Shown piece by piece: positions 12,921 through 22,343 of a stretch of 32,117 nucleotides of DNA (positions within the stretch are counted from its first letter, which is position 1; the number at the start of each line of letters is the position of its first letter). The notes under the pieces are model-generated. The model ran no database searches and was not told the DNA's origin. It was given only the letters and a program-made list of their open reading frames with translations. Made by a program: the position numbers and the translations under genes. Source of the DNA: Flavobacteriales bacterium (GTDB lineage Bacteria; Bacteroidota; Bacteroidia; Flavobacteriales_D; Sanyastnellaceae); assembly GCA_027488055.1 (NCBI GenBank), contig JAIYCK010000268.1, forward strand, positions 1 through 32,117. Reading direction: 5' to 3'.

Positions 12921-13699
12921 ACACTACTTTTGGCCGAAGCCTTCAATGCGAATGGATGAAAACGCGCCATACACCAGCCGTGCGCATTGCCCTCGTGGGT
13001 GCTTTGTTGATTCCATTGATCATGACCATCGCTCAACTGCGCATGCCCAAGACGATGTCCTACAATGCCAATCCCGCAGAATACTGGATCAAACTTTACA
13101 TTCACAGTTGGGAATTCATGGCGGTCCTATTGCTTCCATTCGGGATCATCCTTATCACGAGTATGCTTGTCCAAATTGAATTCAAGAATAACACCTGGAA
13201 ACAGACCCTCATCACTCCGCAAAGTCTTACGTCCATCTACTTTGCCAAATTCGTGATCATCTCAATGCTTTTGTTGTTGTTCTTTGTCAGCTTCAACTTG
13301 TTCATTGTCCTGTCGGGAATCATTCCAGGTTTGTTGCACAGTGACATCGACGTGCCGGCACATTGGCCTCCGCTTTTGAAAATCACCAAAGACATGGCGG
13401 CCATGTGGCTCACATGCCTGCCTTTGCTCGGCCTGCAATACACACTTAGTTTGCGATTCTCCAACTTCATCGTGCCCATCGCCATCGGCCTGGCATGCAT
13501 CATCGCTGGAATATTTGCCCTTCAATGGAGCCAAGGCTATCTCATTCCATTTGCCTACAGCAGTTTCCATTTTATGATCATGTCAGGCCAAGAGAAATTT
13601 CAATTTCCCTACAATATTTATTGGCTTTCCCTCATTTCGTTTGTGGTGTTTGCTGGCGTTGGCTACCTTTCATTCCTATTTAGAAAATACAAAGGTTGA
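12917..13699 (+). CDS. ABC-2 type permease subunit
   Basis: The track ORF begins at 12860 inside the ATPase gene. The better start is the ATG at 12917, which overlaps the previous stop as ATGA and gives 260 residues starting MNTTFGRSLQCEWMKTRHT. Six hydrophobic segments are visible (about residues 22-42, 65-85, 105-130, 155-175, 183-203 and 232-254), the usual count for an ABC-2 permease. The N-terminal EWMKTRHTPAVRIALVGALLI resembles lantibiotic/bacitracin-type permeases (BcrB/MutE group), where a Glu-Trp-x-Lys motif precedes the first helix. Its stop overlaps the next start by 4 nt. Confidence 0.9.
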   Translation: MNTTFGRSLQCEWMKTRHTPAVRIALVGALLIPLIMTIAQLRMPKTMSYNANPAEYWIKLYIHSWEFMAVLLLPFGIILITSMLVQIEFKNNTWKQTLITPQSLTSIYFAKFVIISMLLLLFFVSFNLFIVLSGIIPGLLHSDIDVPAHWPPLLKITKDMAAMWLTCLPLLGLQYTLSLRFSNFIVPIAIGLACIIAGIFALQWSQGYLIPFAYSSFHFMIMSGQEKFQFPYNIYWLSLISFVVFAGVGYLSFLFRKYKG

Positions 13700-14745
13700 T
13701 ACGAAAATTCTCAATACCTCTATTGCACGTGGGCTACTGGTTGATGTACAGCCTGCTTTTCTTGGTATTGTATGTATTTCTGGCGCTTAGCGGCCTCCAG
13801 CACAATCAAGACCCCAAGACCATTCTTGTGTCGTGGATGAAAATAATTGTCGGATTCGCTTATGTGCCTGCCATCATCGGTTTCTATTATGGCTATTGCA
13901 TTGCCTTTCCCAAATATCTTGCTCAAAGGAAGATCAAGGTTTTGATTGGAAAAAGCATCATAGCTTCCATCGTTTCTGCGCTTTTTGGTGGCCTCGCATT
14001 GTCGTTCATTTTTCGATATAATATTATGTGGAATGATGGACTTCAATCGGCGATTCCCCAACTTATGTTGATGTCATTCATTGGCGCGATCAATTTGGTG
14101 CTTGGGAGTGTCATTCGAGGATTTGTGCAGTCCACCATAGACATTTCGATCAAAGAATCTCTTGAACGCGAGCGCTTGCAACTTGAAATGCATCTCCTTC
14201 GCATACAAGTCAATCCGCATTTCTTATTCAACACACTCAACAATATAGACGCATTGATCAAAATCAATCCAGTCAAGGCTTCCGAATACCTCCATAAGCT
14301 AAGTCAATTTATGAGGCAGTTGGTGTATCAAACCGAAGATGCTTGGCAGCCCTTGGATCGCGAAATCTTACTCATCGAAGACTATGTTGAATTGCAGCAA
14401 CTTCGATCCAATGATCCCATTCAGATCAATTGGTCCATCCAGGGACCTACAGAAGATGCACTTGTCCCACCGATGTTACTGCTGCCTCTTATCGAAAACT
14501 GTTTTAAGCATGGACTCATACAGCTTCCACATCCATTGACCATTCGCATCAACGCAGATGTGCATGGCATCCAAATAACATTTATCAATACGATCGATGC
14601 CTCTAACTCTAGTATAGCTGGTGGATTGGGCCTTGAACTCACGCGAAAGAGACTATTGGCCATGTATGGAAATTCGGCTGAACTCAAAGCCGGTTCAACA
14701 GTGGATGGCTATATCCAAACCATATCCATTACAAACACCATATGA
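13696..14745 (+). CDS. LytS/YehU-type sensor histidine kinase
   Basis: The start is a TTG overlapping the permease stop as TTGA; the next Met (codon 17) would cut the first membrane helix. Four transmembrane segments occupy roughly residues 13-33, 48-70, 85-106 and 119-145. The His_kinase domain follows, with phospho-acceptor His175 in RIQVNPHFLFNTLNNID. An ATP-binding domain carries the N-box LLLPLIENCFKHGL and the G-box GGLGLELTRKRLLAMYG. At 349 residues there is no large extracellular sensor, as in the intramembrane-sensing kinases that work with ABC exporters. The signal is therefore probably relayed through the adjacent transporter or the membrane itself. It is paired with the LytTR regulator encoded next. 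Confidence 0.95.
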   Translation: MIRKFSIPLLHVGYWLMYSLLFLVLYVFLALSGLQHNQDPKTILVSWMKIIVGFAYVPAIIGFYYGYCIAFPKYLAQRKIKVLIGKSIIASIVSALFGGLALSFIFRYNIMWNDGLQSAIPQLMLMSFIGAINLVLGSVIRGFVQSTIDISIKESLERERLQLEMHLLRIQVNPHFLFNTLNNIDALIKINPVKASEYLHKLSQFMRQLVYQTEDAWQPLDREILLIEDYVELQQLRSNDPIQINWSIQGPTEDALVPPMLLLPLIENCFKHGLIQLPHPLTIRINADVHGIQITFINTIDASNSSIAGGLGLELTRKRLLAMYGNSAELKAGSTVDGYIQTISITNTI

Positions 14746-15455
14746 TCCAGTGCATCATTATCGAAGACGAACCGATGGCGGTTCAGAATTTGCGCAGAGC
14801 GCTCATGGAGCATGGTGATATACGTATCGCTGCTGTGTTTGAGCATGCCTCAGCGGGACTTTTGTATGCTTCAGAAAATGACATTGATCTCATTTTCTTG
14901 GATGTGCATTTGGGCCGACAAAACGGATTGCAAGAACTAAAAATATCGAAAAAAACTCCCCCTGTGATTGTGATATCGGCCAATAGTCAATATGCACTTC
15001 AAGGATTTGAATTGGATGTATGTGATTATTTACTCAAACCATTTACCACCGAACGACTTCACCGCGCCTTGGAGAAATTCAAAGCCACGCAGCATCAAAC
15101 CAACGAGGCCCCAGCTTGCTTTATCATAAAATGCGATTCACGATTTGAAAGCATCGCTTACCGCGATCTCATTTGTATTGAAGGCATGGGTGACTACAGA
15201 CGTGTCATCACCCTGCAACGCAAAATAATGACGCTTCAAACTTTTCGGGAATTGGAAGAAAAATTAGATCCACACTATGTCATGCGCATCCATAAAAGTT
15301 ATATGATTCACCTGAATGCCTTGATGGAGTTCAAAAGCAGCAGAGTGACACTCACCAACAACATGCAGCTTCCAGTATCTGAAACCTATCGCAAGGCACT
15401 GAAAGAACGTTTGCAAAGTGGCTCTTTTACTATATCAAATAAAGACGCTGGCTAG
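14742..15455 (+). CDS. LytTR-family response regulator
   Basis: The 237 residues consist of a receiver domain and a LytTR DNA-binding domain. The receiver has acidic residues E8-D9, phospho-acceptor Asp54 in LIFLDVHLG and conserved Lys99 in YLLKPF. The LytTR domain spans about residues 125-232 (LICIEGMGDYRRVI, LQTFRELEEKL, MRIHKSYMIHLNAL). The ATG overlaps the kinase stop by 4 nt, so the pair is translationally coupled. The likely target is the 21-bp-period repeat before the operon. The gene is last in its operon and converges on the DUF5777 gene across a 100-bp gap, in which I see no clear terminator. Confidence 0.95.
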   Translation: MIQCIIIEDEPMAVQNLRRALMEHGDIRIAAVFEHASAGLLYASENDIDLIFLDVHLGRQNGLQELKISKKTPPVIVISANSQYALQGFELDVCDYLLKPFTTERLHRALEKFKATQHQTNEAPACFIIKCDSRFESIAYRDLICIEGMGDYRRVITLQRKIMTLQTFRELEEKLDPHYVMRIHKSYMIHLNALMEFKSSRVTLTNNMQLPVSETYRKALKERLQSGSFTISNKDAG

Positions 15456-15555: not shown

Positions 15556-16479
15556 TCATTCTTCCTTGCGCTTTTTGGGTTTGACCACACCAAACATACG
15601 GCTCACGTTGAAGCCGAACATGATATCGCCTTCTTCCCATTGGCCGGTAGTTTCAGTGATGAAGCCCTTCTCATTCATGGGCTTGCTATTGGTGAAGTGT
15701 AATTGGAATACGTGGCCGCCAGTTTCAATATCAAAACCCAATGACAATGAATTGGTATATACGGCATCCAATTGATTGGGTAAATTATAGAAATACTCCG
15801 CATTGAAAGAACTCCGTTTGGTCAATTTGAAACGACCACCAGCACCCATCGAGAAGACATCGTGCTTCACCGAAGGATCCGCAATGATATTGCGATGCAC
15901 CAACGTTGGAGCAATTTGAATAGATAGTCGATCATTGAATTTACGCGCCACCAAAATTTGATGGCAATAAAACAAACGCGACGTAAAATAATTTTTACGA
16001 TCCGGATTCTCCCACTGAGTGGCTCTTACCACCATGGAAGTGAAAACCGATAGACTGATAGGCATGTTGCGTTTGCCTGTGCTTTGTCGAAGTATTTTGT
16101 ACTTCAAAAAGCCATCTATTTCCTTGTTCACGTTGCTTCGGCCGAATCCTGCCATCAACTTATCTGTGACTCCGTATTCGAATCCCAAACGCATGGATGC
16201 TACATCCAAGCCCCACAGGTTATCGGCTCCAGTATTGACGGCTCCAAAGCGGTGACTGATCCGAAAATCCAGCACCCCTGCCGCTGGATTCTCATTGCTG
16301 TGCATATTGATGACCCTTGTGCTTTTGAAGGTGGCAAACACATAATTCGTTGTTTCCTCCTCAGGACCTAATAAGGACAATAAATCAGTGGTATCTGCCT
16401 GCGCGCTGACCTGTTGGAAAGCAAAAAGGGCTGAACAAATCAGCCCTATTTTGAAGAAGTTCATCAAACGTATTTGCAT
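15556..16479 (-). CDS. DUF5777 family beta-barrel protein
   Basis: A signal peptide (about residues 8-27, ending QVSAQ) precedes about 280 residues of alternating amphipathic strands. The segments NYVFATFKSTRVINMHS and GVLDFRISHRFG are the typical opening of DUF5777 proteins. GFNVSRMFGVV lies near the C-terminus, followed by a short basic tail (KPKKRKEE). The family is predicted to form outer-membrane barrels and is regularly found beside YceI-like and cytochrome-like genes. Its start codon overlaps the YceI stop by 1 nt (TAATG), so it is the last gene of the redox cluster. No transport substrate is known to me. Confidence 0.88.
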   Translation of the reverse strand: MQIRLMNFFKIGLICSALFAFQQVSAQADTTDLLSLLGPEEETTNYVFATFKSTRVINMHSNENPAAGVLDFRISHRFGAVNTGADNLWGLDVASMRLGFEYGVTDKLMAGFGRSNVNKEIDGFLKYKILRQSTGKRNMPISLSVFTSMVVRATQWENPDRKNYFTSRLFYCHQILVARKFNDRLSIQIAPTLVHRNIIADPSVKHDVFSMGAGGRFKLTKRSSFNAEYFYNLPNQLDAVYTNSLSLGFDIETGGHVFQLHFTNSKPMNEKGFITETTGQWEEGDIMFGFNVSRMFGVVKPKKRKEE

Positions 16480-17030
16480 TATTTCTTTAGTTCTTGTAAA
16501 TTACCTTTTACTGTAATCTCGATGTTGTTTGAAATCGTATCTGCTTTGTCACCTGGGATTTGAATGCCATACTCGGATGGTTTGACAAAGAATTTGGAAT
16601 CACATGAAATGGCGCCACCTTTCACGATGAAAGTGGCATCTGTCGAAATCTTCTTGGTCACGCCGTGCATCGTCAATTCACCTGATACTTTCGCTTTGTA
16701 TGTCCCATCCGCCTTAAAATTAACAGCACTGATATTTTCAACCTTGCCTTTGAAAGTCGCTTTGTCAAACTTGTCACTTTCCATGTAGGTTTCATTGAAA
16801 TGCTCGCCCATAAATGCATTTTCAAACACGAAACCCTTGATCAATACTGACCATTGAATGTCACCTGTGGCGGCATCGACCACACAAGTGGCTTTGTTAT
16901 TGGTGGCTTGAATTTTCTCCATTTTGGCATCAGAGAAAAATTTGATGCTACCGTCTTTGGTAAAATACTTTTGAGCTTGTGAGAAGTACGATACTGCGCT
17001 CAAGATGGCGATAAAAAGGAATTTTTTCAT
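16479..17030 (-). CDS. YceI-family periplasmic protein
   Basis: The 183 residues start with a signal peptide (MKKFLFIAILSAVSYFSQAQ) and then form one YceI-like lipocalin-type barrel. Visible blocks are GSIKFFSDAKMEKIQATN, FVFENAFMGEHFNETYMESDKF, GELTMHGVTKKI and the C-terminal NNIEITVKGNL. YceI proteins bind isoprenoid chains such as polyprenyl or quinone-like lipids in the periplasm. Beside cytochrome-like lipoproteins, a quinone-related or lipid-carrier role is plausible but inferred. The gene lies 4 nt after the OB-fold gene. Confidence 0.93.
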   Translation of the reverse strand: MKKFLFIAILSAVSYFSQAQKYFTKDGSIKFFSDAKMEKIQATNNKATCVVDAATGDIQWSVLIKGFVFENAFMGEHFNETYMESDKFDKATFKGKVENISAVNFKADGTYKAKVSGELTMHGVTKKISTDATFIVKGGAISCDSKFFVKPSEYGIQIPGDKADTISNNIEITVKGNLQELKK

Positions 17031-17034
17031 TGGT

Positions 17035-17481
17035 TTATTTTTCTTTGGTTTTTTCTACTAATACGCCTTGGTTTAAGAGTACATCACTTTGTTCAAGCAA
17101 CTCCTCGTACATGAAACCATTGCAGATGCCCTTGATTTCAATAGTTGTGCCAACTTGTGCATTGACAGCCATATCACCTTTTTTCAATGTGACAATGACG
17201 TGAGCTGATTCATCTTCTGTGTTCATCACCAACTCTGTATCTCCTGATGCATCTTGTTTTACCTCTTGGAGCAAACCGCTCACTTGGATTACTTTGTCTT
17301 TGTATTTACCGAATGCAACACTGTCATCGGCAGCAAACTCCAAGAACAATGCATGTGCGGTGACCTTTGCAAAAGCAGCTTCATCGGCTGCAGTACGGTG
17401 TGCTTTATTCCACACAAAAAACCAGATATATCCTACAACGAGGAGGGCAACTGCCAATGCAATGAGAATGTACTTTTTCAT
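17035..17481 (-). CDS. Membrane-anchored OB-fold protein (tRNA_anti-like)
   Basis: The 148 residues have an N-terminal membrane anchor (residues 4-23, ILIALAVALLVVGYIWFFVW). A soluble domain follows with the OB-fold pattern of the tRNA_anti-like family: KYKDKVIQVSGLLQEVKQD, TELVMNTEDESAHVIVTLKK, VGTTIEIKGICNGFM. Despite the family name, such exported OB domains are not expected to bind tRNA. In Bacteroidota they recur next to YceI, DUF5777 and cytochrome-like genes. The function is unknown. The flanking genes are 4 and 5 nt away, so it lies inside an operon. Confidence 0.85.
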   Translation of the reverse strand: MKKYILIALAVALLVVGYIWFFVWNKAHRTAADEAAFAKVTAHALFLEFAADDSVAFGKYKDKVIQVSGLLQEVKQDASGDTELVMNTEDESAHVIVTLKKGDMAVNAQVGTTIEIKGICNGFMYEELLEQSDVLLNQGVLVEKTKEK

Positions 17482-17486
17482 TATTA

Positions 17487-17864
17487 TTAATTTTCTGGAA
17501 AGTTATTTTGACTCCACAAGATCCATGCATCAATCGAGCACTGGTTCATCTTGGGTTCATTTTTGGGCATTGGACTGCAACCGCTGGTGTGTTCAATGGT
17601 GCAGAGGAGGCCATTCTCTGTCGCAGCCTTGACTTGCGCATAGGTTTCTAGCGACAAGGAAGCCGACGGTGATGCTCCAGCATGGCAGCTCGAAGTGGCA
17701 CAATTCGCATCGCATATGGCTTTGATTCTGCCATTGTACGAAAAGACCGTGTTGTCGCAAACCACATCGTTCGCGTATAGCTCGGATTCTACATCGTAGT
17801 AGCAAGCGCCTAGACTAGCAAAGCAAATTATTCCACATATCCAATACCAATTCGAACGTTTCAT
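17487..17864 (-). CDS. Small lipoprotein with a CX4CH cytochrome-c-like module
   Basis: The track start (17927) is too early. The Met at 17864 gives MKRSNWYWICGIICF and a lipobox LGAC at Cys21, for a 125-residue lipoprotein. The mature part has the motif CATSSCH (C-x4-C-H) followed by GASPSASLSLETYAQVKAA, and a downstream SPMPKNEPKM that could supply a distal Met ligand. This layout copies the two modules of the upstream 17905 protein. Whether heme is attached is unproven, because classical c-type motifs are CXXCH. Further cysteines flank the motif. It is in a tight operon (40 nt and 5 nt gaps). Confidence 0.75.
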   Translation of the reverse strand: MKRSNWYWICGIICFASLGACYYDVESELYANDVVCDNTVFSYNGRIKAICDANCATSSCHAGASPSASLSLETYAQVKAATENGLLCTIEHTSGCSPMPKNEPKMNQCSIDAWILWSQNNFPEN

Positions 17865-17904
17865 TAATATTTTAATTTTTACGAAAATAGGTAGAAAATG
17901 ACGA

Positions 17905-18627
17905 TTAATTGTTGGGTGCACCTGCATTTACCCACAACTGAAATTGTGCAATGTTGCAAGCTGGCAAACCTAAAGTATTGTCAGGCATGATAAGATAACC
18001 ACCCGTGCCTTGCAACGAATGCATCAACCTGCCGTCAAGGGCTACAGCCTGAATTTGAGCAAAGGTCTCAAGGGCTACGCCGCCATCTGGTGAAGAACCA
18101 CTGTGACAACCTACACAAGCCAACTCAATAGTGGGCTGAAGATTGGCGGCAAAGGAAAACTGTGTTGGATCACAATCCGGCGTGCAACTATTGTTCTGAG
18201 CGCCTTGGTTGACCCACTGGGTGAGTATACCAATTTGTTCTGCCGACAACGGCCCACCCATCTCCGAAGGCGGCATTAAATTGTTGCCTGTCTCTGTGAG
18301 CACCTCAATCATATCGCTATCCCCTGCATCACCCGGTGTGACAATATCACTTCCCATAAGTGCGGCATAGCTATATAGACGAATATCGTCTTCTGCCGTG
18401 ATGGCATCATGACAATCCGTCATTGCACAATTACTGACAAGGATGGGAAGCACCTGCGAATTAAAGTAAACTGAATCGGGATCACATGGATGTGGGTTGA
18501 CTATCAGCGTATCTGGATTACCGCCGTTGCCAGGATCCTCCACAATTACCAATTCAGGTTCATGCTTACAGGCAGCGACAGCGCTAAGTAGCAGTATGAC
18601 CAAAAACGACCACACATACTTTCCCAT
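17905..18627 (-). CDS. Lipoprotein with two cytochrome-c-like modules (CX4CH and CXXCH)
   Basis: The start at 18627 (MGKYVWSF) gives 240 residues; it follows AAGGA by 6 nt and leads directly to the lipobox AVAAC. The track start, seven codons upstream (18648), is possible. Module 1 has FNSQVLPILVSNCAMTDCHD (C-x4-C-H) and a distal LMPPSEMGGPLS. Module 2 has LQPTIELACVGCHSGSSPDGG (classical CXXCH) and GGYLIMPDNTLGL. Both end in the same helix type (ILTQWVNQGAQ, QFQLWVNAGAP). The fold resembles the planctomycete-type cytochrome c domains of secreted Bacteroidota proteins. It is probably an outer-membrane or periplasmic electron-transfer lipoprotein and the first gene of the redox cluster. Confidence 0.83.
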   Translation of the reverse strand: MGKYVWSFLVILLLSAVAACKHEPELVIVEDPGNGGNPDTLIVNPHPCDPDSVYFNSQVLPILVSNCAMTDCHDAITAEDDIRLYSYAALMGSDIVTPGDAGDSDMIEVLTETGNNLMPPSEMGGPLSAEQIGILTQWVNQGAQNNSCTPDCDPTQFSFAANLQPTIELACVGCHSGSSPDGGVALETFAQIQAVALDGRLMHSLQGTGGYLIMPDNTLGLPACNIAQFQLWVNAGAPNN

Positions 18628-18705
18628 TTTGTTTCCTTTTTCTTGCATTGACTAACTAAAAATACATCTTAATAACTGGCATATTGGTATTCAAGACCCT
18701 CATGA

Positions 18706-18762: not shown

Positions 18763-19038
18763 TTAATCCCACGAAATTGTGACCTCTTCCGATGTGGGAT
18801 GCGCCTGACAACATAATGTCTTGCCTCCTTGTACTTCTTTATCCGTGAGGGCAAAATTCTTGTCCATGACGACATCACCACTCACCACTTTGGCCATGCA
18901 CGTGGTGCACACACCGCCCTTGCAGCTATATGGCGCATCAACACCTGCATCTAGCGCGGCATCTAATATGGTGCTGCCTTCTCGGCCCAGCTCGAAGGTA
19001 GTCTGAATGCCATCGATGATTACAGTAACTTTTGCCAT
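18763..19038 (-). CDS. Plant-type 2Fe-2S ferredoxin
   Basis: The 91 residues form a complete chloroplast-type ferredoxin. The cluster ligands are in YSCKGGVCTTCMAKV (C-x4-C-x2-C) and in TLCCQAHPTSEE, which gives the fourth Cys. The segment VVMDKNFALTDKEVQGGKTL resembles the C-terminal ferredoxin domain of PaaE-type oxidoreductases. It would carry single electrons in the cytoplasm, but no reductase partner lies next to it. Its ATG begins 1 nt after the stop of the TlpA-like gene, so the two are co-transcribed. Confidence 0.95.
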   Translation of the reverse strand: MAKVTVIIDGIQTTFELGREGSTILDAALDAGVDAPYSCKGGVCTTCMAKVVSGDVVMDKNFALTDKEVQGGKTLCCQAHPTSEEVTISWD

Positions 19039-19039
19039 G

Positions 19040-19537
19040 TTATTTGGATTCTAATAATTGATTAATTTCCTGCAAAAATACAGCATCTTCCCAATTGCAA
19101 GCATCTACCTTTTGGAATACTATTTCATTGCGCGGATTAATGACATAAGTGGTTGGTATGGTTCGCACACCTATCTCGTTCAAACTAGCTATCTTCAGTA
19201 TTTTGATATCGGAAGGCAATAACATGCGCATCTGATTGATCTCCTCCCATGTATCATCGGTTAAGAAAACAAAGTTCAATCCACGCGCTTGCAATGCCTC
19301 GTACTGCTTGGTAATTTGTCTGATCTCTCGGATACAGGGCCCACACCAATGTGCATAAAAATGGACAATTTCAGCACCTTTTCGTTCCGCACCCAAATTG
19401 GAGAATTGACCGGGAGCCACCTCGACCTGGATGGCGTCTTGCTCCAAATCCGATGGTATTTTGTACATCCAATAATATATTCCATAGATCGTACAAAAGG
19501 CTGCCAGAATCAGCAGCAGGTTTTTATTATTTTTCAT
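19040..19537 (-). CDS. TlpA/ResA-like membrane-anchored thioredoxin
   Basis: I place the start at 19537 (MKNNKNLLLILAAFC). The longer track start overlaps the preceding gene by 31 nt and adds a hydrophilic stretch before the signal anchor. The 165 residues have an N-terminal membrane segment (about 7-24). A thioredoxin fold follows, with the active site HWCGPC (Cys65 and Cys68) and the cis-Pro loop RTIPTTYVINP. The protein should act on thiols in the periplasm, for example in cytochrome maturation or disulfide reduction. The cytochrome-like cluster starts about 400 bp downstream, which makes a link to heme-protein maturation attractive but unproven. Confidence 0.9.
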   Translation of the reverse strand: MKNNKNLLLILAAFCTIYGIYYWMYKIPSDLEQDAIQVEVAPGQFSNLGAERKGAEIVHFYAHWCGPCIREIRQITKQYEALQARGLNFVFLTDDTWEEINQMRMLLPSDIKILKIASLNEIGVRTIPTTYVINPRNEIVFQKVDACNWEDAVFLQEINQLLESK

Positions 19538-19572
19538 TTCTATTTCGTTGTTTTGAGGGGTGCCCAACCAAA

Positions 19573-20226
19573 TCAATCCGTTGGTGCAGACTCGTCCATC
19601 CATTCGTGGTCAGGCAATGGATCAAAGTAGGAGGGATCGGGTGCCTCATCGCTCACTTGCGTTATCTCATAACGAACGGTCAGGTGGTCTTGATAAAATA
19701 CAAAATACATTGGCATGCCCGGTAAATTGATGTAGCGCTCTTTCAACGCACATGGAACATTCACAGCATACCAAACAGATAAGGTATTGTTTGGCATTTC
19801 ATTCTCTCGCCAAATGGCCTTTTTGCAGGGGTGTTGGGCAATGATCGTATCGCCTTCGGCCAATTCAAATCGACCTCTTTCAAATGCAAATTGGGCTGAA
19901 CTTTCTACAGCAGATGCGCCTTTCTTTGGCTTTGATCGCATCGCTATTTTTTTACCCATCGCCTCAAAGTAACTCACCTCCTCGTTTTTCAAACTGTCCG
20001 TTTGGACTATGACATACCCCATTGAAGGAACGATGAAATTGCATCTTGAAAAATATGGTTTATTGAAGATGGTAAATTGCATGTTCAATGCCTGCTCTTG
20101 ACCGCCAAGATCGATGTCGGTGCCAATGACTTTGAGTCCGCCAGCATACGATCCTGTGCGATGTTGGGACCAACTAGCTATTGCGAGTCCACAGATCAAT
20201 ACAACGGAGCAGAGCACAGATTTCAT
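19573..20226 (-). CDS. Secreted protein of unknown function (GLPGLI/DUF4412-like pattern)
   Basis: Met19 of the track ORF (20226) starts a clean signal peptide, MKSVLCSVVLICGLAIASWSQ, so I use it; the protein is 217 residues long. I do not recognise it with certainty. The stretch GDTIIAQHPCKKAIWRE, then VWYAVNVPC, then RYINLPGMPMYFVFY and YEITQV follows the pattern of exported GLPGLI/DUF4412 proteins. These share a central 'CKKA' strand, a 'VWYT' strand and a 'LPGLP' turn. The C-terminus is very acidic. It lies between the fused E1 gene (50-nt gap) and the TlpA-like gene (35-nt gap). Confidence 0.75.
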   Translation of the reverse strand: MKSVLCSVVLICGLAIASWSQHRTGSYAGGLKVIGTDIDLGGQEQALNMQFTIFNKPYFSRCNFIVPSMGYVIVQTDSLKNEEVSYFEAMGKKIAMRSKPKKGASAVESSAQFAFERGRFELAEGDTIIAQHPCKKAIWRENEMPNNTLSVWYAVNVPCALKERYINLPGMPMYFVFYQDHLTVRYEITQVSDEAPDPSYFDPLPDHEWMDESAPTD

Positions 20227-20276: not shown

Positions 20277-22343
20277 TCAATAGGCCAATAAATCAGCGAT
20301 CTCGACACTCACTTTATCCGCATTGGGCAGAAGAGCCGCTTCCAATTGACTATTCAAGGGAATGGCCGGAGTAGCTACCGAACCCATTGTGCGAACTGGT
20401 GCATCCAAATACTCAAAACAACGTTCTGAGATGAATCCTGCGATATTGCGGGCGAAACTATTCTCCGGTGCCTCTTCCGTAAGCACCAAGCAACGACCAC
20501 ACTTTCGAACAGCAGCGAGAATAGCATCCTCATCTACAGGTGATAGTGTGCGCAAATCCAAAAGTTCGATTTGGCCAGGAAATTGGGCTGCCGCTGATTT
20601 GGCCCAGTAGACCCCCATTCCATAGGTAATGATGGCCAAAGCCTTATCTTCGGTAGCTTGCAAAACCGTGCGCGCCTTCCCAAAAGGAATCACATAGTCT
20701 TCCGATGGCTCAATGGTGCGGGCATCTTCAGTCCCTTTCACTTTACTCCAATACAAGCCTTTGTGTTCCAACATGACAACTGGATTGGGGTCGTAATAGG
20801 CCGACTTGAGCAATCCCTTGAGATCAGCACCAGTGCTTGGATAGGCCACCTTGATGCCCTTGATATTACACAATACGCTTTCAACGCTGCTACTATGATA
20901 AGGGCCACCGCTGCCGTACGCTCCGATGGGCACACGTATCACGCACGACACAGGCCACTTGCCATTGCTCAAATAATAACTTCTGCTTACTTCTGTAAAC
21001 AACTGGTTGAGTCCAGGCCAGATATAATCAGCAAACTGCACTTCCACTATGGGTTTCAACCCTACAGCGCTCATGCCCACTGTGCTTCCAATAATAAAAG
21101 CTTCTTGGATGGGTGTATTGAACACGCGTTGATCGCCAAATTTTTCGGCCAAGGTTGCTGCTTCACGAAACACCCCTCCCAACCGCTTGCCGACATCTTG
21201 ACCGTATAAAAGCGACTCCGGATGGTTCCCCAAAATTTCTTGCATAGCAAACAAAGCACAATCGACCATGACCGTGGCTTCTTTACCCGCTGGACTGCGG
21301 TCGCCTTTCTCCTCCATCACAGGTGAGGGCGCCATCATGAAATTCAATAGATCAGCTGATGTGGGATCAGGTGCTTGCAAGGCTTGTTCATAAGCCTCTT
21401 CTACCTCTGAGCGGGTGCGATTGGAAATAGCTTGCAGGTCTTGATCACCAAAGCCAAATCCTTTGAGATCCTTGATAAATCGAGGAAGTGGATCACGGCG
21501 TTGCGCTGCTTCTAAATCATCGCGGTACCATTCTTTGCGCACTCCGCTGGTATGATGGCCGAGCAAAGGCACTTTGCAATGGATCAACCAAGGACGACGT
21601 TTGGTGCGCATATCGTCGATGACTTCGCGTATAACGTTGTAACAATTGACGAAATCCGTTCCATCGAGCGACTTTAGCTTCAGGCCGGGGAACGCACGCG
21701 AGTAAGTTGCCGCATCACCAAACCGAATTTCAGAAGAATGTGCACTAATGTCCCATTCATTGTCTTGTACAAAAAACAGGATCGGCAATTGCTTCAAGGT
21801 AGCCATGTGCAGGGCTTCTGCGACCTCGCCTTCCGTCATAGCGGCATCTCCGATACTGCACACTGCAATGCCACCCAATTCATGATCTTCCATCAATCCT
21901 TGTTGCTCTTTGTATTGCAGTCCCATCGCTACGCCTGTGGTAGGTATCGCTTGCATACCGGTGGCAGAACTCTGATGGGGTATTTTGGGCATGTCATCCC
22001 TGCGCAATGAAGGATGGCAGTAATAGGTGCGGCCTCCTGAAAATGGATCGTCGCGTTTGGCCATCAATTGGAGCATGAGTTCGTATGGCTTCATGCCAAT
22101 ACCCAATAAAATACTATCGTCTCTGTAGTAGGCACTCAAATAGTCTCTTGGCTCGAGCTGCATGCCCAACGCCAATTGGCAGGCCTCATGGCCGCGGGAA
22201 GTCGCATGTACATATTTCGCTGTGACCTTAGCGTTTTCTTCATACAAATCAGAAAGATGGCGCGCAGTGGTCATCAGTTCATACGCTTTCAGCAAGCGAT
22301 CACTTGTTAGCTGGTGGTCGCCTTTGGTCAATTGATTCTCCAT
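20277..22343 (-). CDS. 2-oxoacid dehydrogenase E1, fused alpha and beta subunits (2-oxoisovalerate type)
   Basis: The 688 residues join both E1 subunits in one chain. The alpha part (about 1-330) has RGHEACQLALGMQLEPRDYLSAYYRDD and the thiamine-diphosphate motif region CSIGDAAMTEGEVAEALHMA with DNEWDIS. The beta part (about 355-688) has VMVDCALFAMQEILGN, the GQDVGKRLGGVF motif, PIQEAFIIGSTVGMSAVGLKPIVEVQFADY, GAYGSGGPYHSSSVE and the C-terminal LVLTEEAPENSFARNIAGF. It decarboxylates branched-chain or similar 2-oxoacids and passes the acyl group to an E2 lipoyl protein. E2 and E3 are not in this window. Fused E1 proteins of this length are common in Bacteroidota. Confidence 0.95.
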   Translation of the reverse strand: MENQLTKGDHQLTSDRLLKAYELMTTARHLSDLYEENAKVTAKYVHATSRGHEACQLALGMQLEPRDYLSAYYRDDSILLGIGMKPYELMLQLMAKRDDPFSGGRTYYCHPSLRRDDMPKIPHQSSATGMQAIPTTGVAMGLQYKEQQGLMEDHELGGIAVCSIGDAAMTEGEVAEALHMATLKQLPILFFVQDNEWDISAHSSEIRFGDAATYSRAFPGLKLKSLDGTDFVNCYNVIREVIDDMRTKRRPWLIHCKVPLLGHHTSGVRKEWYRDDLEAAQRRDPLPRFIKDLKGFGFGDQDLQAISNRTRSEVEEAYEQALQAPDPTSADLLNFMMAPSPVMEEKGDRSPAGKEATVMVDCALFAMQEILGNHPESLLYGQDVGKRLGGVFREAATLAEKFGDQRVFNTPIQEAFIIGSTVGMSAVGLKPIVEVQFADYIWPGLNQLFTEVSRSYYLSNGKWPVSCVIRVPIGAYGSGGPYHSSSVESVLCNIKGIKVAYPSTGADLKGLLKSAYYDPNPVVMLEHKGLYWSKVKGTEDARTIEPSEDYVIPFGKARTVLQATEDKALAIITYGMGVYWAKSAAAQFPGQIELLDLRTLSPVDEDAILAAVRKCGRCLVLTEEAPENSFARNIAGFISERCFEYLDAPVRTMGSVATPAIPLNSQLEAALLPNADKVSVEIADLLAY

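Follow-up and report, generated by a model that had tools for sequence, protein, structure and literature searches.

A small number of multiheme proteins are known to contain the heme motif CX4CH. In the cytochrome c3 of Desulfovibrio, a compact tetraheme bis-His protein, CX4CH heme sites lie beside CXXCH sites, and both thioethers are formed at these CX4CH sites, as they are at the CX15CH site of MccA. In MmcA of Methanosarcina acetivorans, CXXCH, CXXXCH and CXXXXCH motifs are mixed and heme has been proven on all of them, in the case of CXXXCH and CXXXXCH by mass spectrometry (PMC11024163). The Ccm machinery that serves this archaeon has a CcmE with CXXXY and works without CcmH, a variant of System I that has been described in archaea and in Desulfovibrio, and the CcmE of Desulfovibrio is of the same Cys type (PMC9084895). 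The locus examined here resembles MmcA in its mixture of spacings and in the type of Ccm system present in the genome, but MmcA is an archaeal multiheme bis-His cytochrome, whereas the modules described below are predicted to be single-heme modules with His/Met ligands.

The window, the whole stretch of 32,117 nucleotides that was analysed, comes from a Flavobacteriales bacterium and carries two adjacent lipoprotein genes on its minus strand. CYT2 (17905..18648 as a translated reading frame of 247 aa, probable start at 18627, lipobox Cys20) has two modules, and CYT1 (17487..17864) has a single one and matures from CYYDVESELYA. The first ATG of the CYT1 reading frame, at 17927, falls within the upstream gene, and 17864 (MKRSN...) is most likely the true start. 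In CYT2, module M1 has the layout CDPDSVYF...SNCAMTDCHDA...NLMPP...WVNQGA, with its CX4CH motif CAMTDCH at 18409..18429 and the putative axial Met118 at 18274..18276, and M2 has the layout CDPTQFSF...LACVGCHSG...LIMPD...WVNAGA, with the CXXCH motif CVGCH at 18103..18117 and the putative axial Met214 at 17986..17988. Module M3 of CYT1 reads CDNTVFSY...DANCATSSCHAG...CSPMPK...WSQNNFPEN, and its CX4CH motif CATSSCH (17682..17702, in the region CATSSCHAG) is followed by the putative axial Met100 at 17568..17570; all of these features are on the minus strand. The preliminary description of this DNA had reported three modules with mixed CX4CH and CXXCH motifs in adjacent lipoproteins, sharing a CD...F stretch, a CH turn and a later MP pair, and the translations confirm both the modules at this place and the way that they were described.

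The nearest named domain is PSCyt1 (PF07635), which matches CYT2 with an E value of 1.7e-11 and 45 bits against a curated cut-off of 22, M1 being the best-matching stretch. The order of a helix, CXnCH, MPP and W..GA is common to both. However, in the sample of long planctomycete-type PSCyt1 proteins from Bacteroidota almost every motif is CXXCH (CYxCHGPD type), whereas M1 has CX4CH and M2 has CXXCH, and we therefore call CYT2 PSCyt1-like and not a standard PSCyt1 cytochrome. CYT1 had no Pfam match above cut-off. Residues 144-200 of CYT2, which cover M2, also match the LIC11213 family lipoproteins (NF047812; E 8e-7), but at 29 bits CYT2 stays below the cut-off of 100 and is not a member. Class I c-type cytochromes such as cytochrome c6 likewise have the heme site after the first helix and a distal Met before Pro, and in AlphaFold2 models of the two lipoproteins (mean pLDDT 84.9 and 82.3) a helix ends just ahead of each motif. 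They differ in that the modules here include CX4CH motifs and have two extra flanking cysteines each, and the fold similarity is not significant: Foldseek gave weak matches to solved structures, cytochrome c6 among them, with a best E value of 0.12 and none below 0.001, and a sequence search of the PDB gave no match.

The family was recovered from 47 of the 60 related genomes searched, and we aligned 31 CYT2 homologues (alignment A1) and 39 of the small CYT1-type lipoproteins (alignment A2). The invariant residues were C48, C53, H54, M99 and P100 of M1 and C152, C155, H156, M195 and P196 of M2 in A1, and C35, C40, H41, M79 and P80 of M3 in A2. Both motif cysteines and the His of CXnCH are thus conserved as in c-type cytochromes, and the distal Met expected of class I, which is predicted to coordinate the iron, is invariant in all three modules together with its Pro, whatever the spacing of the motif. 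Judged from these alignments, conservation of the module residues is far beyond chance. X2, X3 and X4 forms share a Gly directly ahead of the second motif Cys, which places their CH ends in register. Conserved cysteines outside the motifs flank each module, one on either side (C29/C129 and C133/C205 in A1, C16/C89 in A2), and since these pair up by flank, the two motif cysteines are left as the remaining pair. CYT1 has a further pair at A2 columns 76 and 84, beside the putative axial Met (CTIEHTSGCSPMP; positions 17490-17804 of the window, minus strand), which is present or absent as a unit, both cysteines occurring in 11 homologues and neither in 28, and which is predicted to form a second disulfide. 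M3 of the window has one more nearby cysteine, C52, without an obvious partner, which we count against the heme reading.

The spacing of the heme motif is set by position. We collected 129 nonredundant CYT2 proteins of Bacteroidota from 80 loci and from genome searches; the contig scan that gave the 80 loci rested on a closer subset of the 31-row alignment and used the patterns DxDxxMPP and AEDGVVLNSY and not the heme motif. The terminal pair was CX4CH followed by CXXCH in 122 of the 129, a count with a possible mild bias to X4 since the collecting profiles derive from X4-type M1 modules, although a two-residue gap is cheap in such searches. The seven exceptions were M1 with CX6CH (three proteins), CX9CH together with CX3CH (one), CX3CH in M2 (one), a shifted extra module (one) and a single recognised module (one), and M2 was CXXCH in 126/128 cases. 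Longer relatives retain the last pair, and the modules added on the N-terminal side are nearly all CXXCH. At three loci (L105, L140 and L149), three such extra modules bring the chain to five, ending in CX4CH and then CXXCH. M1-like small single-module lipoproteins from other families of the phylum have CX4CH in 13/14. In contrast, the 89 CYT1 proteins encoded directly downstream of CYT2 vary, with X2 in 58, X4 in 23 and X3 in 8. A CYT1 tree built without the inter-Cys residues implies 10 changes of spacing, although few of its branches are firm and the starred branches alone force far fewer; M3 of the window falls in a group of nine with 93% support in which X4, X3 and X2 occur three times each. 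The suggestion that an alignment of homologues would reveal whether CX4CH is fixed thus has a divided answer, in that M1 is fixed as CX4CH and M2 as CXXCH, whereas M3 varies. The CX4CH module is a real, phylum-wide feature, fixed by position beside a CXXCH module.

The best reading of these features is that M1, M2 and M3 are c-type heme modules, class I-like and distant kin of PSCyt1, and from the sequence record we infer that the CX4CH modules, too, quite probably bind heme. Each module would consist of a helix followed by CXnCH, the His of which would be one ligand of the iron, and of a Met in the MP pair that would be the other. In M1 and M3, CX4CH would attach heme covalently and be equivalent in function to CXXCH, the two extra residues being looped between the thioether cysteines. 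The switching of the M3 orthologue between X2, X3 and X4 among close relatives is what would be expected if all were one kind of site. The heme-type assignment made in the preliminary description is in this way well supported, by the invariant Cys, His and Met-Pro residues, the PSCyt1 match and the changes of spacing in M3. Previously described in multiheme proteins, CX4CH prevails here at one position of a single-heme-type module throughout a phylum, with a CXXCH neighbour in the same chain. The fixed M1 and M2 and the drifting third module offer natural variants for asking whether cytochrome c synthases read both cysteines or the CH end only. It also means that surveys that count only CXXCH (PMC11495043) would miss heme sites in Bacteroidota.

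The genome of the window, an assembly that is 83% complete, has one cluster with CcmE, CcmC, CcmF and a CcmB-like permease. CcmE (G000 contig C295, L242, 3553-3996) reads MLMKCPSKY, with CXXXY in place of HXXXY, and CcmC and CcmF appear as two PF01578 matches that flank it, in frames of 361 and 965 aa. The Cys form (KCPSKY in this genome) was found at all 37 CcmE loci examined. CcmH was found in none of the 60 genomes searched, this 83% complete assembly included, although control genomes gave matches, and no PF05140 match for the ResB/CcsB protein of System II was seen in the window's genome. Judged by its genes, this is a variant System I with a Cys-type CcmE and without CcmH. Since Methanosarcina, with a Ccm of that type, loads MmcA, the genome possesses a type of machinery for which loading of CX4CH has been demonstrated, and the CX4CH motifs of M1 and M3 may be loaded by it. 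The earlier idea that CX4CH may carry heme "with help" has thereby gained a concrete candidate, the predicted variant of the Ccm system that this genome encodes.

Across Bacteroidota, the longer spacings mostly go together with this type of system. In a sample of 297 genomes from the phylum, all listed genomes with a full two-module CYT2 have CcmE, compared to 65% overall (P = 4e-5, kinship ignored). With one query, modules other than CX2CH were found in at least 19 of 45 CcmE-positive genomes and in 2 of 45 that lack CcmE (P = 3e-5, kinship ignored), the 19 being a lower bound while nearly all listed matches were retrieved in the CcmE-lacking set, and CYT1-type proteins with X3 or X4 were found in 17/31 CcmE-positive and 1/31 CcmE-negative cases, again with kinship ignored. 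Both differences are in favor of a maturation effect and against the alternative that common descent alone links long spacing and the variant Ccm, operon and Ccm genes having been inherited together while CcsBA could load CX4CH as well. At the level of families, the association is weak (16/22 CcmE-positive against 2/7 CcmE-negative families, P = 0.07), as shared ancestry would predict, and two genomes with System II only are exceptions, G145 with CX4CH and G051, whose assembly is 7% contaminated, with CX6CH. We regard shared ancestry as a serious possibility that falls a little short of being probable; it competes with the maturation step and not with heme binding. For a dependence of CX4CH on this variant of System I, the data are no more than suggestive. 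More tentatively, spacing in Bacteroidota could be set by the maturation machinery, with the Cys-type, CcmH-less Ccm permitting CX3CH to CX9CH in single-heme His/Met modules, CcsBA lineages having lost or reverted them, and the long spacing of M1 then being kept by selection, perhaps because it tunes the heme. A strict rule that CX4CH occurs only with CcmE is broken by the two exceptions. The CX4CH protein of G145 (L265 / L283) is a lipoprotein, encoded in a genome with ResB and in which no CcmE was detected.

That the CX4CH modules are free of heme, with the Cys pair forming a disulfide or, together with the His, binding another metal, so that M1 would have derived from a cytochrome module and taken on a structural or regulatory role, appears unlikely. 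CX4CH is not the standard site, and the fixed X4 of M1 beside the fixed X2 of M2 would fit a division of labor between heme and non-heme modules. However, the His and the MP Met are invariant in M1 and M2 alike, and the other conserved cysteine pairs already meet the needs for disulfides. It is also hard to explain X4 as a disulfide or other-metal site when the same orthologous site in M3 interconverts between X2, X3 and X4 while the rest is kept, and the other-metal and disulfide options put forward earlier are therefore disfavored. Similarly unlikely is that the heme of CX4CH is held non-covalently or by a single thioether to the second Cys, the first serving otherwise, since, although M1 spacings of up to X6 and X9 go beyond the needs of a simple double-thioether loop, all of the 31 and 39 aligned homologues retain the first Cys, and MccA and cytochrome c3 are examples of long CXnCH sites at which both thioethers are formed.

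The duplication of the modules is old. With the inter-Cys residues left out, M1 forms nearly one group, with 4 label changes against a mean of 110 after shuffling, and M3 matches residues 151-240 of CYT2, that is, M2 better than M1. A recent tandem duplication is ruled out by these two results. As M1, M2 and M3 are distinct lineages throughout the phylum, their divergence did not arise inside this locus, and the CX4CH of M3 came about independently of that of M1. The preliminary description was apt in calling the modules a natural experiment; its picture of one duplication inside the locus does not hold.

The two genes belong to a conserved operon. Downstream on the same strand are a tRNA_anti-like (OB-fold) protein (17035..17481; PF12869, E 1.1e-16), a YceI-like protein (16479..17030; PF04264, E 3.5e-15) and a DUF5777 outer-membrane barrel (15556..16479; PF19089, E 3.4e-98). 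Of the loci, 81 extend far enough to be scored: at least 64 of them have a CYT1-type gene after CYT2, and further downstream 68 have the barrel, 41 have YceI and 37 have the OB-fold protein, the commonest order being the full CYT2-CYT1-OB-YceI-barrel. This conserved company makes a role as envelope electron carriers likely for the modules, in which CYT1 and CYT2 would work with the OB-fold, YceI and barrel proteins, and we infer that the operon is an outer-membrane electron-carrier unit. The acidic CYYDxExELY that follows the lipid Cys of CYT1 is near-invariant and resembles the acidic lipoprotein export signals known in the phylum (PMC5080379), so surface exposure of CYT1 is possible. Upstream, also on the minus strand, lie a 2Fe-2S ferredoxin (18763..19038; PF00111, E 3.2e-19) and a thioredoxin-like protein with CGPC (19040..19603), both of which are upstream neighbours in closer relatives, and a 2-oxoacid dehydrogenase E1 with fused alpha and beta parts (20277-22343), which, in close relatives, is syntenic with these two genes and with those of the cytochromes. 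A histidine kinase and a LytTR response regulator (13696-15455 of the window, opposite strand) adjoin the barrel gene here, and in some relatives an HK/RR pair is the immediate upstream neighbour of CYT2, so the pair may regulate the operon.
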